A stretch of 64,000 nt of DNA from Rhodocytophaga rosea (GTDB lineage Bacteria; Bacteroidota; Bacteroidia; Cytophagales; 172606-1): assembly GCF_010119975.1 (NCBI RefSeq), contig NZ_CP048222.1, positions 8,160,501 to 8,224,500 of the forward strand, given 5' to 3'. Of this stretch, positions 7,526 through 62,586 are shown in pieces (position 1 is the stretch's first letter; every line of letters begins with the position of its first letter). The position numbers were made by a program, and so were the translations under genes. The notes below the pieces were generated by a model. The model was not told the DNA's origin, did not search any database, and saw only the letters and a list, made by a program, of their open reading frames with translations.

Positions 7526-7974
7526 GATAACTACTTAATAATTGTGCATCAGCTCAATTAATTACATACAGCCTGAACACAAAGCAACAGTGCGGTAGGT
7601 GGTGTAGCAATAGCACGGACTTTTTTGGCCTTGTGCGTGGCCACAACCGAGCATGAGAATGCGAAGGCTGCCAACGAAGTTGATTGTGCGACGATTTTTC
7701 ATAACACGAAAAAAGTCTCTATTGGTGCTGCAACAACTACATTGGCTTGCTTCGGCTCTCGCCTCACAAATGTTTTGTTACTGGCACACAAAGCTGGCTC
7801 AAAGCTCTCGCTTTGCCACACAGTTTTAGCACAAGGCTCGCTCAAAAACTCTCGTTTTTGCCGTCTTTTGGGCAGGCAAAATAAAAGTAAGACGGCATAA
7901 GATTTTATTAACGCTTTATTAATCCACAATCTACTATAAAATATGTTCATTAATTAAATAGATTGCCAGTTACT
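7526..7974. other. 449-bp non-coding region containing a dispersed repeat
   Basis: The stretch is noticeably richer in G and C than the usual intergenic DNA here and includes short hairpin-prone blocks (for example around ggccttgtgcgtggcc near 7617). Open frames on both strands (7625-7900 plus, 7699-7950 minus) exist, but their sequence derives from the repeat at 7773-7896, so I do not call them genes. Confidence 0.6.
7773..7896 (+). repeat. Dispersed hairpin element, copy A (two tandem hairpins)
   Basis: This 124-bp element begins TTTTGTTACTGGCACACAA and ends AAAGTAAGACGGC; a 78-bp relative lies inverted at 62328-62405. Copy A carries two hairpins: caaagc-TCTC-gctttg at 7800-7815 and caaaaac-TCTC-gtttttg at 7843-7860. 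The loops are identical while the stems differ in a compensatory way. Copy B has only the first. The element lies between two genes in an untranslated region. Confidence 0.8.
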
Positions 7975-34382: not shown

Positions 34383-34476
34383 CTAAAAACTTACTTCCGG
34401 CAATGCATAGCAGGCGGTTACCTTTTAAAAATCCTTCAAAACAATTCTACTTAATTTGTAATTTGCGTGAGAATAA

Positions 34477-34613
34477 GTGAATGAGAGAATGAGTGAGTGA
34501 GTGAATAATTCTATTATTTCTCTTAATAATAAGCTGATTTGAATGTAGCTATTAAATTAGAACTTGTAGATTTGATACCAGACACTCACTCAATCACTCA
34601 GCCTCTCATTCAC
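34477..34613. repeat. Inverted microsatellite (GAGTGAGT / ACTCACTC)
   Basis: The left arm at 34477-34503 (gtgaatgagagaatgagtga onward) and the right arm at 34583-34613 are imperfect complements and could form a long cruciform or RNA stem around 80 bp. A -7-like TAGATTTG at 34567-34574 lies just before the right arm, with TTG at 34539-34541, a spacing longer than usual. Confidence 0.55.
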
Positions 34614-34667
34614 TCAATGTCTTCATTTCATATTAGACATTTACCTCAACCTTACCAGCATTTCTGA

Positions 34668-47040: not shown

Positions 47041-47140
47041 TCTGGAACCTGGATTACACAGATTTAAGAATTTACCGGATTAATTACTGCGAAAAAGCAT
47101 AATCCTGTGAATTTTAAAATCCTATAAATCCTGGTTCCGG
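47041..47140. repeat. Dispersed inverted-repeat element, copy 1 (CTGGAACC...GGTTCCGG)
   Basis: The outer arms tctggaacctggatt and aatcctggttccgg are near-perfect complements flanking about 70 bp that contains partial copies of CCGGATT/AATCC. It fills the gap between the TonB receptor gene and the DUF4249 gene. A second copy lies at 49595-49722. Confidence 0.75.
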
Positions 47141-47144
47141 GTGA

Positions 47145-49484
47145 TTAAAACTTAAAATTATAGGTTACCGAAGGAATAACCGGAAACAAAGAAACCTGTT
47201 TGGCTTTAAAACCAGTAATCTGGTCAGTATCTTCGTCCCGTAATTCCTCAAAATAAATAAAATACGGATTGCGCCGGTTATAGGCATTATACACACTGAA
47301 TGTCAGGTCAGAATCGCCCCACTTGTGTTTAAACTTCCAAACGAGTCCCAGGTCGAGCCGGTGATACGGGGCCATCCGGAAACTATTTCTTTCCAGATAT
47401 TCAGGTACTACACTAAAATTAGCGCCTTCCACATCCTGAAAAATAAAACGGCCAACCGGTAAAGAGATTGCATTTCCGGTACCATAAATCCAGGTGGCCG
47501 TTACAGATAATCTTTTATTCAACTCATGCATCACCACCATCGTCATATCATGCCGGCGGTCGTACCTGGGGAAAAACCTTCGTCCTTCATTGATCTCATC
47601 AAACTTGCGGAACGTCCAGGAAAGCGTATAGCCTATCCAGCCAGTGGTGCGGCCTTCTTTTTTTTCCAGGTATATTTCGTTGCCATAACCCCAGCCTTTT
47701 CCAAATACAAACTCCTGCTCCAGCTGAGGATTCACAAACAATTGCGCCCCATCCCGGAAATCGGTCTGGTTCTTCATCCATTTATAGTAAACTTCATTGC
47801 TAAGCAGGTATTTACCCCGGCCCAGTAATATGCTGATTCCACCGGCTATCTGGTCGGAGCGTTGCGGCCTGACAATCCTTCCGGAAGGGAACCAGATATC
47901 TGTGGGCAATGAGGCGCCGGAATTAGAAACCAGATGCACATACTGGTACATTCTGGCTGCACTTGCCTTTACAGAGGCGGTATTACTAAGTTTATATCTG
48001 GCCGAAAAACGAGGTTCCAGGCCGCCATACCATTTACCCCGGCTTTCAAAGCCAGATAATCTAAACCCACTATTGAGCCGCCAGCGGATATTCGGCGTAT
48101 AATCACTCGACACATAAGCGCCCATTTGCGAACCAAATAAGTCCTGTCCGGAACTGAAAGATACCCGGCCATCATCGCTGCCGGCCTGTAAACGGCCTAC
48201 CGCAAACTGATGATAGGTGTATTGTGCGCCAAACCTAAGTGTGTGATTATTGGTGATCAGGTAGTCGAAATCTGTTTTGCCGCTTACATCCTGAATGCTG
48301 GAGCCCAGAGTAAACTTAAAGATGTCGAACTTATTGGCTATGCTGTAATTATAGTCAGATATGATAAACGAAGTATTAGAAAAGAGTCTGGGATTAAAGA
48401 TATGGTTCCAGCGCAAGGTACCGGTGGTATTTCCCCACTTAAAATCAAAGTTAAAATTGTCGCCGCTGAACTTGAAAATATCCCTTCCAAAATATCCACT
48501 TAGAAACAACCTATCTTTTTTGCCCAGTTCATAATTAACCTTCGCATTCATGTCATAAAAATAATAATCCGGAATCGGATTATATTCTTCATCATCTGCA
48601 TTGGCTTTGTTGAGTTGCCTGGTAAAAATATCAAAATAAGTTCGCCGGCCTGAGAGCATAAACGAAGATTTATCCTTCAGCAAGGGGCCTTCCAGGGTCA
48701 GCCTGGAAGCAATGAGTCCGATGCCGCCGCTTCCTGCAACATGCTGATCGTTGCCATCTTTCAGTTTTACATCCACTACCGAAGAAAGCCGTCCGCCAAA
48801 CTGAGCCGGAAAATCTCCTTTGTATAAATCTACCCCTTTTACCGCATCCGGATTAAAGATGCTGAAAAATCCAAACAAGTGAGCTGCATTGTAAACAGTT
48901 GCCTCATCAAGTACAATCAGGTTCTGATCCGGACCGCCACCTCGCACATATAACCCGGTAGCCCCTTCCCCACCCGACTGAATGCCTGGCTTCAGTTGTA
49001 AAGCTTTGATAATATCTACTTCTCCAAACAGGGCCGGAATCTGCTTGATTTCTGCAATGCTGAGTCGTTCTACACTCATTTGTGTTTGCTCCAGTTTGGC
49101 TTGCAGCGATTCAGCCGTTACTACTACTTCTTTGAGCTCCTGTTTCTCAGGTGCCAGCATAATAGTGAGCTGCTGATTTTTGACGAGGAATACTTTGCGT
49201 TGAGCCGGTGCATAGCCGATATAAGAAATGATGAGTTGAATACTGTCGGTTGGCAGGGATAAGGAGAAATAACCATAGGCATTGGTAGTGGTTCCTTTAC
49301 TTAACTGTGGTGCATATACCGAAGCGCCGATCAAATCTTCGCCTGTTTCAGCATCTTTTACATAGCCGCTTACAGAAAATTTATGCTGAGCCTGGCTTTC
49401 CCCTACTAACGTAAGCGCAAAAAGCAGGCAAATAAAGCAAGAAAACCAGTATCCAGATCGTATGTTAGCCGTAGAAATATGCAT
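47145..49484 (-). CDS. TonB-dependent outer-membrane receptor with carboxypeptidase-regulatory-like domain
   Basis: The signal peptide ends at GESQAQ; the start at 49484 (MHISTANIRS) is chosen to give it. Next is a carboxypeptidase-regulatory-like domain (KFSVSGYVKDAETGEDLIGASVYAP), then a plug domain (GEVDIIKALQLKPGIQSGGEGATGLYVRGGGPDQNLIVLDEATVY) and the 22-strand beta barrel, ending NPYFIYFEELRDEDTD with the terminal Phe in SVTYNFKF. It should import a ligand across the outer membrane with energy from TonB. The ligand is unknown. The DUF4249 gene follows. Confidence 0.93.
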   Translation of the reverse strand: MHISTANIRSGYWFSCFICLLFALTLVGESQAQHKFSVSGYVKDAETGEDLIGASVYAPQLSKGTTTNAYGYFSLSLPTDSIQLIISYIGYAPAQRKVFLVKNQQLTIMLAPEKQELKEVVVTAESLQAKLEQTQMSVERLSIAEIKQIPALFGEVDIIKALQLKPGIQSGGEGATGLYVRGGGPDQNLIVLDEATVYNAAHLFGFFSIFNPDAVKGVDLYKGDFPAQFGGRLSSVVDVKLKDGNDQHVAGSGGIGLIASRLTLEGPLLKDKSSFMLSGRRTYFDIFTRQLNKANADDEEYNPIPDYYFYDMNAKVNYELGKKDRLFLSGYFGRDIFKFSGDNFNFDFKWGNTTGTLRWNHIFNPRLFSNTSFIISDYNYSIANKFDIFKFTLGSSIQDVSGKTDFDYLITNNHTLRFGAQYTYHQFAVGRLQAGSDDGRVSFSSGQDLFGSQMGAYVSSDYTPNIRWRLNSGFRLSGFESRGKWYGGLEPRFSARYKLSNTASVKASAARMYQYVHLVSNSGASLPTDIWFPSGRIVRPQRSDQIAGGISILLGRGKYLLSNEVYYKWMKNQTDFRDGAQLFVNPQLEQEFVFGKGWGYGNEIYLEKKEGRTTGWIGYTLSWTFRKFDEINEGRRFFPRYDRRHDMTMVVMHELNKRLSVTATWIYGTGNAISLPVGRFIFQDVEGANFSVVPEYLERNSFRMAPYHRLDLGLVWKFKHKWGDSDLTFSVYNAYNRRNPYFIYFEELRDEDTDQITGFKAKQVSLFPVIPSVTYNFKF

Positions 49485-49594: not shown

Positions 49595-49722
49595 GGGCTG
49601 GAACCACGATTATATAATTCGCAGATTAGATCAATGCTGAAGGAACAATCATCTTACTTACGCTAAATTTTATGTTTATGAATCCTGTTATTCCAACAAT
49701 CCGATAAATCCTGGTTCCAGAC
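49595..49722. repeat. Dispersed inverted-repeat element, copy 2 (GCTGGAACC...GGTTCCAGAC)
   Basis: The arms gctggaaccacgatt and aatcctggttccagac flank about 95 bp. The right arm stops three bases before the stop codon of the GT4 gene. Its right arm is almost the same as that of copy 1 (ATAAATCCTGGTTCC). A lone left-arm-like segment (gaaacctggattatgcagat) sits at about 45549-45568. Confidence 0.75.
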
Positions 49723-49724
49723 GA

Positions 49725-50936
49725 TTATTCCGGCACCACAGCTACCTCTTTTGAAATAGCAATAGGTTTCGATTGAGGAAACAGGCCCACAAACGTTTTT
49801 GTCAATATTTCCCGTGAAAACTGCGTTTCTGCCAAGTAGCGGGCAGAAGATTTTGCCTCTTTTAATTTCCGCTTACTGGCCAGATAGGGAAGTAGTTTTT
49901 TATAAAAATCATCTGGTTCATCGGGAGAGGCATAAAAACCACAATCGGCTTCTTCAATTGATTCCCTTACCCAGCCACTTGTATTGGTAATACACAATTT
50001 ACCCGCTGCCAGGGCATCAAAAAACTTATTAGGGCTGCTGGTTTCCATTACTGGTTTCTGCGCAAACGAAATATACACAGCATCTGTATGTGCTAACATT
50101 TCCCTCAGTGTAAATTTATCTACATGGGGATGAAACGTCATATTATTCAACTGATACTGTTGCGCCAGCTGTTGCACCTGTGCATTGGCATTGCCTTTTC
50201 CCACTACCTGAAACCGGACACCACTTAGTTGTTTCTCCTGAAAATAACGGGCGGCTTCTACCAGATAATTTAATTGATTAACCTTACCTACAGCTCCAAA
50301 ATAACTGATGGTGAATGTATTTGTCTTTTGCGGAAATGTAGGTTCATCCGCCTGAAAAAAATCACAATCCGCCATATTGGGAATTACATGAATTTTACCC
50401 AGGTCTGTTATTTTCTGACTAATATCTTGTGCCATTCCTGGCGACAGGGCGATGATCTTTTGTGCCTGCCGGTAAACGAGTTTCTCGAAACCCCGGATTA
50501 TTTTCTGAATGAACCCATTACGGATGACGCCCATTTCGATGGGTGCCTGGGGCCATAAATCCCTTACTTCAAAATAGAAGGGAATATTTTTTAGTTTTTT
50601 TAGCAACAGAGCAGTTATCCCAACCGTCAGCGGTGTAGAGGTAGCGTAACATAATCCTGCATTTTTGATAGAAAGCGCCAGCCTGGATGCCTGAATGACA
50701 AATCTCAGAAAAGACAGGATACGTCCTAAAAAACCCAGTTTTGTATCGTAAAATACCGGCAGGTAATGAACGGTAATACCTTCGATCCGTACTTTCTGGT
50801 AGGCTTTCTTATTGTGGCTGGTGATCATCTCCACCTGATGCCCCTGTTTGATTAAGGCTTTTGCCAGGTAATACGACCTTGAGGAACCGCCGTCAGCATA
50901 AGTTTTAAAGTACTGGTGTATATAAATTATTTTCAT
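49725..50936 (-). CDS. GT4-family glycosyltransferase (WbuB-like)
   Basis: A GT-B fold enzyme: MKIIYIHQYFKTYADGGSSR with the N-terminal acceptor glycine loop, and KTNTFTISYFGAVGKVNQLNYLVEAA for the donor domain. LSPGMAQDISQKI and SPNKFFDALAAGKLCITNTSGW give the E-x7-E-like region, here altered. Such enzymes add a sugar from a nucleotide donor to a glycan or lipid, commonly in O-antigen or capsule synthesis. Cytoplasmic or membrane-associated. It is the last gene of a three-gene unit with asparagine synthase and a GH5-like gene (gaps of 25 and 5 bp). Confidence 0.9.
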   Translation of the reverse strand: MKIIYIHQYFKTYADGGSSRSYYLAKALIKQGHQVEMITSHNKKAYQKVRIEGITVHYLPVFYDTKLGFLGRILSFLRFVIQASRLALSIKNAGLCYATSTPLTVGITALLLKKLKNIPFYFEVRDLWPQAPIEMGVIRNGFIQKIIRGFEKLVYRQAQKIIALSPGMAQDISQKITDLGKIHVIPNMADCDFFQADEPTFPQKTNTFTISYFGAVGKVNQLNYLVEAARYFQEKQLSGVRFQVVGKGNANAQVQQLAQQYQLNNMTFHPHVDKFTLREMLAHTDAVYISFAQKPVMETSSPNKFFDALAAGKLCITNTSGWVRESIEEADCGFYASPDEPDDFYKKLLPYLASKRKLKEAKSSARYLAETQFSREILTKTFVGLFPQSKPIAISKEVAVVPE

Positions 50937-62231: not shown

Positions 62232-62586
62232 TTTAGGTATTATTTATCACTATTAAATTGATTTCAGAGATTGATATCACTTAACGTACAAGTTCTTCAG
62301 TTAATATTTCCTGTTGTGAATACTTACGCCGTCTTACTTTTCTTTTGCATGCCCAAAAGAGGGCAAAGCGAGAGCTTTGAGCCAGCTTGTGTGTCAGTAA
62401 CAAAAGAAAAAGGCAAAATGAAAAACGCTTCCTCCCACATCCAACGCTCACCCCACTTTTCATTTATCCTCTCGCTCATGGAATTTTTGTTATTTTTTTG
62501 ATTTTCTGTTTTCAATACCTCTTTCAAAACATACTTTTACGCTCATTGCTGTAACAGATCAAGCTGGCATTGGCAACAAAAGCTTT
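62232..62586. other. Intergenic region between the RND pump and the inserted lipoprotein gene
   Basis: A 355-bp spacer, mostly AT-rich, holding the dispersed hairpin element at 62328-62405. Short open frames here (62271-62501 plus, 62281-62527 minus) reflect the repeat, not genes. Confidence 0.6.
62328..62405 (-). repeat. Dispersed hairpin element, copy B (single hairpin)
   Basis: On the minus strand this 78-bp segment matches copy A (7773-7896): it starts TTTTGTTACTGACACACAA and ends AAAGTAAGACGGC. It has one hairpin, the caaagc-TCTC-gctttg type, at 62364-62379, and lacks the second hairpin with its 46-bp surroundings found in copy A. It lies in an untranslated spacer. Confidence 0.8.

Follow-up and report, generated by a model that had tools for sequence, protein, structure and literature searches.

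Two inverted relatives in the window and the family behind them

The window analysed here, a stretch of 64,000 nucleotides of the Rhodocytophaga rosea genome, carries at 7773-7896 (copy A) and 62328-62405 (copy B) two inverted relatives of a hairpin-forming sequence, which raises the question of what kind of element they come from and why its stems change while remaining paired. Both relatives are present as an earlier note, made from the letters of the window alone, had claimed: a repeat finder linked them through a 45-nt block at 91% and a 27-nt block at 100%, both inverted, and copy A has the described stems CAAAGC/GCTTTG and CAAAAAC/GTTTTTG, each with a TCTC loop (GAGA on the opposite strand). 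The stem differences proved to be compensatory, as further copies stay paired with other stem sequences, and these changes in more copies support the proposed selection on a folded nucleic acid. Folded singly, neither copy A nor copy B gained over dinucleotide-shuffled sequences (z = 0.02 and -0.39), and thus the case rests on comparison rather than on folding energy.

The expected dispersal beyond these two copies was also found, with at least 66 copies in the 8.98-Mb single-contig genome of R. rosea. With copy A as query there were three other near-full-length matches, well beyond what chance would give (E = 3e-42 to 1e-38), and at least 41 matches at E up to 10, copy A itself counted, and queries from longer copies gave at least 54, 49, and 38 matches; each genome search scored 40 candidates (40 of 60 for the copy A query), so that all these counts are lower bounds. 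From the search results, 67 heads were listed by hand, 66 of them within fetched sequence. Near-identical copies lie at unrelated genomic sites, and some form inverted pairs with the heads outward, e.g., 430535/430915, 2116723/2117104, and 5062061/5062407.

In the listed copies one end is formed by a shared "head" (S2 plus its loop), which is backed by a hairpin arm that varies, with at least three arm types in R. rosea. Read on the sense strand from arm to head, the order in the head is S1 5' - L1 - S2 5' - S1 3' - S2 3', i.e., the hairpin arm is followed by a predicted H-type pseudoknot made of S1 (UGCC/GGCA), a pyrimidine loop L1, and S2 (UUACUUUUCUUUUG/CAAAAGAAAAGUAA). The whole element exceeds the hairpins first noticed, as copy A starts at about 7585, and the conserved core S1-L1-S2, the predicted triple helix, is situated at the edges of the 78-bp unit that had been described. 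The sense strand is the plus strand for copy A and the minus strand for copy B (Table 1). Growth by tandem duplication, which had been suggested for copy A, holds at best in part, since its tandem hairpins are small modules that interrupt the 5' strand of the larger pseudoknot stem. Copies A and B are damaged members of the family, because hairpin modules split the S2 5' strand in both of them and copy A also has one module replacing S1 and half of L1 and another one in the arm.

Table 1. Features of copies A and B, in positions of the window.
Feature	Positions	Strand	Basis or remark
Copy A, whole element, arm to S2 3' end plus GACGGC flank	7585..7896	+	By-eye and search comparison with other copies; 5' limit approximate
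Copy A, arm 5' strand tgtagcaatagcacggactttttt	7603..7626	+	Pairs with 7708-7731; two-sided changes in relatives
Copy A, arm 3' strand gaaaaaagtctctattggtgctgc	7708..7731	+	Pairs with 7603-7626; two-sided changes in relatives
Copy A, arm-inserted double-hairpin module: GNNA tetraloop hairpin and GNA triloop hairpin	7644..7682	+	Contig ~8168140 (+)
Copy A, second double-hairpin module, opposite orientation, replacing S1 and the 5' part of L1	7734..7771	-	Contig ~8168270 (-)
Copy A, remnant of the putative third strand L1, TTTTG	7773..7777	+	Identical remnant in other copies with a module here
Copy A, S2 5' strand, lower part TTAC	7778..7781	+	Complementary to 7887-7890
Copy A, hairpin modules interrupting the S2 5' strand; two TCTC hairpins at 7800-7815 and 7843-7860	7782..7864	+	
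Copy A, S2 5' strand, upper part CTTTTG	7865..7870	+	Pairs with 7877-7882, one mismatch
Copy A, S2 3' purine-rich strand CAAAATAAAAGTAA	7877..7890	+	
Copy B, whole element, type-2 arm	62328..62485	-	Tail limit approximate
Copy B, S2 3' strand, sense CAAAAGAAAAGTAA	62334..62347	-	
Copy B, S1 3' strand, sense GGCA, inside the S2 loop	62350..62353	-	Sequence and family evidence
Copy B, S2 5' strand, upper part, sense CTTTTG	62354..62359	-	
Copy B, hairpin module interrupting the S2 5' strand (hairpin of the earlier note)	62360..62396	-	
Copy B, S2 5' strand, lower part, sense TTAC	62397..62400	-	
Copy B, putative third strand L1, sense TTTTTCTTTTG	62401..62411	-	Sequence and family evidence
Copy B, S1 5' strand, sense TGCC	62412..62415	-	Sequence and family evidence
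Copy B, type-2 arm, hairpin AATGAAAA.../...TTTTCATT	62416..62466	-	

The L1 loop follows the purine strand of S2

In these heads L1 mirrors the S2 pyrimidine strand instead of repeating it directly, and it matches the S2 purine strand in parallel, as would be expected of a pyrimidine-motif triple helix. A contiguous-run triplex score separated poorly (6.60 observed; 5.39 with permuted loops, maximum 6.26; 6.39 with L1 reversed). In a run-length test that was chosen after this weak score, i.e., post hoc, the S2 purine strand was read as m A, an interruption X, and n A, and L1 as p T, an interruption Y, and q T, where a triple helix requires q = n and a direct repeat q = m. This parse was obtained for 81 of 115 sense-like head strings, which gave, with one count per genome, 36 combinations from 22 genomes; in most of the 34 unparsed strings S2 had been drawn too far, into the L1 linker, or the string was an antisense reading, a poly-A stem, or a chance match. 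The T run of L1 after the interruption equals the S2 A run in 35 of the 36 genome-distinct combinations, against a mean of 17.8 and a maximum of 30 in 20000 label shuffles, and all 10 asymmetric cases, where m differs from n, fit the mirror (triplex) rule, none of them the direct repeat. X/Y was G/C in 33 combinations and T/G in three.

Other ways of counting gave lower or similar fractions. In a first count, which treated some loci of one genome as separate taxa and kept p, the rule held in 44/45 combinations and in 12/12 asymmetric ones. A scan without the parse filter gave 54/74 (15/18 asymmetric), and a looser parse with one string per hairpin gave 48/57 (15/17 asymmetric). Of the 16 missing strings in the latter count, nine come from R. 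rosea copies that have lost S1 and part of L1 to a module, one has a point change, and six were read in antisense or in a shifted register. A 2x2 pattern test in viral contigs found three short/short cases and none in the other three cells, numbers too small to carry weight.

The variants of S2 and L1 match to the base, i.e., GAAGAAA with CTTCTTT, AAAAAA with TTTTTT, GAAAGAAA with CTTTCTTT, AAGAGAAAG with TTCTCTTTC, and AAAGAAAAA with TTTCTTTTT, the exception being one variant without the expected extra C. Where the S2 purine strand has a T, L1 has a G at that position, and of the known third-strand bases G suits a T-A inversion best. This G-for-T change was seen only in Rhodocytophaga and in one Cytophagales metagenome-assembled genome (MAG), and it may be one single event. 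C.G-C triples prefer acid pH, which is a point against the triple helix. At the sequence level, the heads show the 5' Hoogsteen Y - Y - R order with parallel T.A-T and C.G-C steps of an intrastrand pyrimidine-motif triplex (class IV), and they also show the features of an H-type pseudoknot triple helix, that is, S1 and S2 paired with covariation and an L1 that matches the S2 groove.

S1, the arm and the sense strand

S1 co-varies as well, with a mean helix of 3.31 compared to 2.58 with permuted loops (maximum 2.89 in 2000 permutations). A script found 30 distinct helices of at least 4 bp, of which a few are doubtful. The sequences of S1 differ among the many heads in which it pairs, e.g., TGCC/GGCA, TGTC/GACA, TGTA/TACA, CGCC/GGCG, GCCGC/GCGGC, CTTGAC/GTCAAG, and GTGGC/GCCAC. 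This stem is short, with at least 4 bp in 76 of the 145 scanned strings and fewer in 69, some strings being antisense or misread artefacts.

A joint structure of arm, S1, and S2 was drawn for 22 type-1 elements from four genomes, on the same alignment on which it was scored, and it paired 96.5% of the cells, with a covariation of 0.181 vs 0.098 in shuffled alignments (0/500) and 0.044-0.066 with slid partners. Pair types in this structure were not above shuffles (22 vs 24.1), and two-sided pairs were slightly above them (9 vs 7.1). In the RNAalifold fold the last base pairs of the arm overlap S1, so that the arm end and S1 may compete for pairing.

In a wobble-blind alignment of the arm strands, the sense strand showed 353 Watson-Crick pairs, 107 G.U, 7 A.C, and 60 others, counted over cells that come from related elements and are thus not independent; on the opposite strand the G.U and A.C counts are exchanged. 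S2 gave G.U 12 and A.C 4 on the sense strand (6 vs 3 without a class that was seeded post hoc), which is weak evidence for an RNA strand. Energy folding gave the sense strand no advantage (mean z of -2.16 for sense and -2.38 for antisense, 54 elements).

Position of the copies relative to genes

With open reading frames (ORFs) called by a simple longest-ORF rule, the gene upstream of the element is co-directional with it for 52 of 66 copies in R. rosea (p 3e-6) and for 28 of 39 in two Selenomonadales MAGs (p 0.009). For the gene downstream, R. rosea also gives mostly co-directional cases (47 of 65), and the two MAGs give no bias (19 of 37). The position that both have in common is thus that after a gene, as only the upstream bias occurs in both. 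The few annotated plasmid copies gave no clear bias: one Pasteurella head and Parabacteroides have a co-directional upstream gene, Burkholderia cepacia and one Ilyobacter copy an opposite one. The G.U excess, together with the co-directional upstream gene, suggests a 3'-region RNA element.

A site that follows stop codons, with CCTTTTCTTTTG directly after the arm hairpin on the sense strand, could also be a transcription terminator, in which the arm hairpin and the U-rich L1 end transcription. The arm with its T-rich L1 looks similar to an intrinsic terminator, for which a GC hairpin with a T run at the RNA 3' end is typical. We consider this very unlikely, because L1 and S2 must share one molecule: a stop within L1 would exclude S2 from the RNA, yet L1, S1, and S2 co-vary. 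Moreover, no T run was seen by eye after S2 in the copies compared.

In R. aerolata the pattern found no head in the 1.5 kb before the orthologue of the gene at 7963, and the upstream neighbour matches another contig; this locus is consequently not a clean empty site for copy A. The window also contains two further repeat arrangements: 47-nt direct repeats at 47101-47147 and 49681-49727, 79% alike and 2580 bp apart, each touching a called ORF end, and a 36-nt inverted repeat at 34469-34621 with GAGTGA-like units and an 81-nt centre.

Hairpin modules inserted in the element

A strict pattern found 14 hairpins in the fetched R. rosea loci, of three stem types, namely CAAAGC (5), CAAACAT (5, with two loops), and CAAAAAC (4), and the further stems CAAAAC, ACCAAAT, and ACCAAAC in genomes of the family. 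A related double-hairpin module (e.g., TTCTCGAGGCGAGAGCCGAAGAGAACCAACGTAGTTG) occurred 14 times in the same R. rosea loci, also by strict pattern. The nested double-hairpin modules are 36-40 bp long and have GNA/GNNA loops, which are very stable in DNA. In about nine R. rosea copies, double-hairpin modules stand in place of S1 and half of L1, as if they preferred the triplex region. The use of GNRA loops as a marker of the functional RNA strand was dropped, because the modules occur in both orientations and the G.U pairs and the genes indicate the other strand.

A double-hairpin module of 33-36 bp lies inside an IS3-type gene near 3021690 of the R. rosea genome; compared to six aligned paralogous copies without the module, the net gain is 33 nt and no target duplication was seen. 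The hairpin modules look like small independent insertions, and they would have entered separately at the DNA level, breaking L1 or S2 in many copies, including A and B. They resemble the double-hairpin elements of fungal mitochondria (Allomyces) as these are cited in PMC2800124, a likeness that covers the inserted modules only and not the triple-helix element.

The lone module in the IS3-type gene, absent from the paralogues, could also point to the whole family being a non-autonomous transposon of the MITE/REP type without a cellular role, the structure of which reflects mobility alone. The high copy number and the species-specific arms speak for this explanation. A MITE has terminal inverted repeats, a target duplication, and a partner transposase; in the present family the pairs stand with heads outward. 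We regard it as somewhat unlikely, since the strict three-strand covariation across phyla and the gene-orientation bias exceed the needs of mobility; the IS3 site lacks a target duplication, and the search for a partner transposase, which covered the Y1 transposases, found none beside a head (see below).

Distribution in bacteria

Related heads are found in Bacteroidota, Pseudomonadota, Fusobacteriota, and Selenomonadales MAGs, and the copies have species-specific arms. A 44-base head pattern matched 31 stretches in named genomes, from Cytophagales, Cyclobacteriaceae, Flavipsychrobacter, other Bacteroidetes MAGs, and three Selenomonadales MAG contigs. A blastn search of the plasmid collection with a 51-base head gave 12 records (E 1e-5 to 0.07) from Pseudoalteromonas, Ilyobacter, Burkholderia, and Pasteurella, to which variant heads add Caballeronia, Paraburkholderia, Variovorax, Chitinibacter, Aeromonas, and Parabacteroides, among others. 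There were partial matches in Leptospira and Streptococcus, two weak matches in phages, and no match of the head in E. coli.

A loose S2 pattern exceeded its reversed control in one Selenomonadales MAG (37 per strand vs 3), in the other (21 vs 5), in a Paraburkholderia megaplasmid (49 vs 1), and in Ilyobacter (29 vs 7); in the Bacteroidota MAGs it was at or near the control (e.g., 27 vs 29, 43 vs 45, and 21 vs 52, the best being 34 vs 18). Among 296 evenly drawn Bacteroidota genomes, R. rosea included, the exact pattern occurred in one and the pattern with three mismatches in four. Judged from these matches, the distribution is wide but patchy, and lateral transfer and old descent look alike in it.

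Comparison with known systems

The 64-kb window matched no Rfam family at the gathering score, and three R. rosea loci matched none at E up to 2. U.A-U triple helices are known in H-type pseudoknots and other RNAs, i.e., in telomerase RNA, the SAM-II and preQ1-II riboswitches, and the MALAT1/PAN ENE. In all of them the deep groove of an A-U stem takes up a pyrimidine loop or strand, as predicted here; they have no known sequence relation to the present element, whose third strand was read from covariation in intergenic repeats.

The earlier note had proposed a REP/BIME-like system with an associated transposase. The family resembles REP/BIME with RAYT (PMC3733652, PMC6006769) in being made of many intergenic palindromes with inverted pairs and compensatory stem changes. 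The association itself was not found, as a PF01797 search of the R. rosea genome gave five Y1-transposase matches at four loci, IS200-type by eye, without any head in their 1.5-kb flanks; with no RAYT beside the heads, this candidate was rejected. The shapes given in these sources do not fit either: a REP has a GTAG/GT[AG]G foot and a 20-40 bp stem-loop, and the present head has TTAC...GTAA, a 14-bp stem, and an arm with a pseudoknot, while the CGTC-tagged REP superfamily (CGTC end, 8-9 bp stem, 4-5 nt loop, CCA-like tail) differs from its 14-bp stem and 6-nt loop. The R. rosea heads are flanked by GCCGTC, which is found in part in one other genome of the family and is absent from the 31 stretches of the 44-base pattern search.

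Intrastrand triplex motifs have been catalogued in 5246 replicons, with the G/C-rich BoxC/PIT studied as a purine-motif (class II) DNA triplex, and class IV making up 4% of hits vs 3.5% in scrambled genomes (Holder et al., 2015; PMC4666352). BoxC/PIT and the present element are both dispersed intergenic bacterial repeats with a predicted intrastrand triplex and inverted pairs, and the class IV topology of that catalogue has the order found in the present heads. The BoxC/PIT consensus CCCTCNCCC...GGGNGAGGG is G/C-rich and the present heads are A/T-rich, which separates the two. A word search of the main text of that paper found neither pseudoknot nor Bacteroidetes. Bacterial intrastrand triplex repeats are thus already known, and the present family would be a variant of which we found no description in open-licence papers, including a search by sequence words that gave one paper, an unrelated one, with some of the search terms being narrow.

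In 12 BoxC copies from six stretches of E. coli K-12 MG1655, the C-rich strand has the same Y-Y-R order as the present element, and there are five inverted pairs, four with heads outward and one inward. This likeness would favour a fold on which selection acts in single-stranded DNA (an intrastrand triplex or a cruciform), where it could, for example, serve a transposase or recombinase as substrate or make replication pause, in line with what has been discussed for BoxC/PIT, and so would the near-identical copies at unrelated sites, the outward pairs, and the GNA/GNNA loops of the nested modules. We judge such a DNA-level element to be unlikely: the arms show the excess of G.U over A.C on the sense strand, the bias after co-directional genes occurs in two distant groups, no Y1 transposase lies beside a head, and no consistent S1 was seen by eye in the 12 BoxC copies.

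The arm, for its part, has a match among candidate RNAs. In two Pseudoalteromonas replicons the arm beside the head scores 60.4 and 51.3 bits (cut-off 43), on the sense strand of the head, as TwoAYGGAY RNA (RF01731), an orphan candidate RNA (Weinberg et al., 2010; PMC2864571), and the Rfam match ends before the pseudoknot. Among the loci tested, only the Pseudoalteromonas arms matched; those of Rhodocytophaga, Selenomonadales, and beta-proteobacteria did not, nor did the window. TwoAYGGAY RNA stands directly before a predicted triple-helix pseudoknot in three loci, and AYGGAY-like loops were seen by eye, without an Rfam match, in Aeromonas and Selenomonadales arms. At a Burkholderia cepacia locus (L184, 499-610, minus strand), Rfam Bp1_684, a candidate Burkholderia sRNA, starts at the end of the predicted triple-helix head.

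Proposed function

Taking these observations together, we think it rather probable that the family is a dispersed non-coding element ending in a triple helix, transcribed in the 3' region of the preceding gene and blocking 3'-to-5' exonucleases. The element would be transcribed within that region as a hairpin arm followed by the H-type pseudoknot, in which the pyrimidine L1 would lie in the deep groove of S2 and Hoogsteen-pair with its purine strand (T.A-T, C.G-C). With S1 as its closing stem, the terminal triple helix of some 7-9 steps would then resist 3'-to-5' exonucleases and protect the 3' end of the upstream mRNA, in the way in which the triple helix of the MALAT1/PAN ENE protects RNA 3' ends.

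More tentatively, it is possible that a natural RNA triple helix, with three-strand covariation including the switch from C.G-C to G.U-A, caps a mobile 3'-region element in several phyla, TwoAYGGAY being its arm and E. coli BoxC a G/C-rich functional cousin. In distant groups the third strand has evolved in step with the other two, and evidence of this kind has decided other RNA folds. If this helix forms in RNA, it would be for bacteria what the ENE triple helix is for viruses and mammals, a protection of RNA 3' ends, placed on a repeat that spreads from gene to gene, and the orphan RNA family TwoAYGGAY would, if this is true, gain a place.
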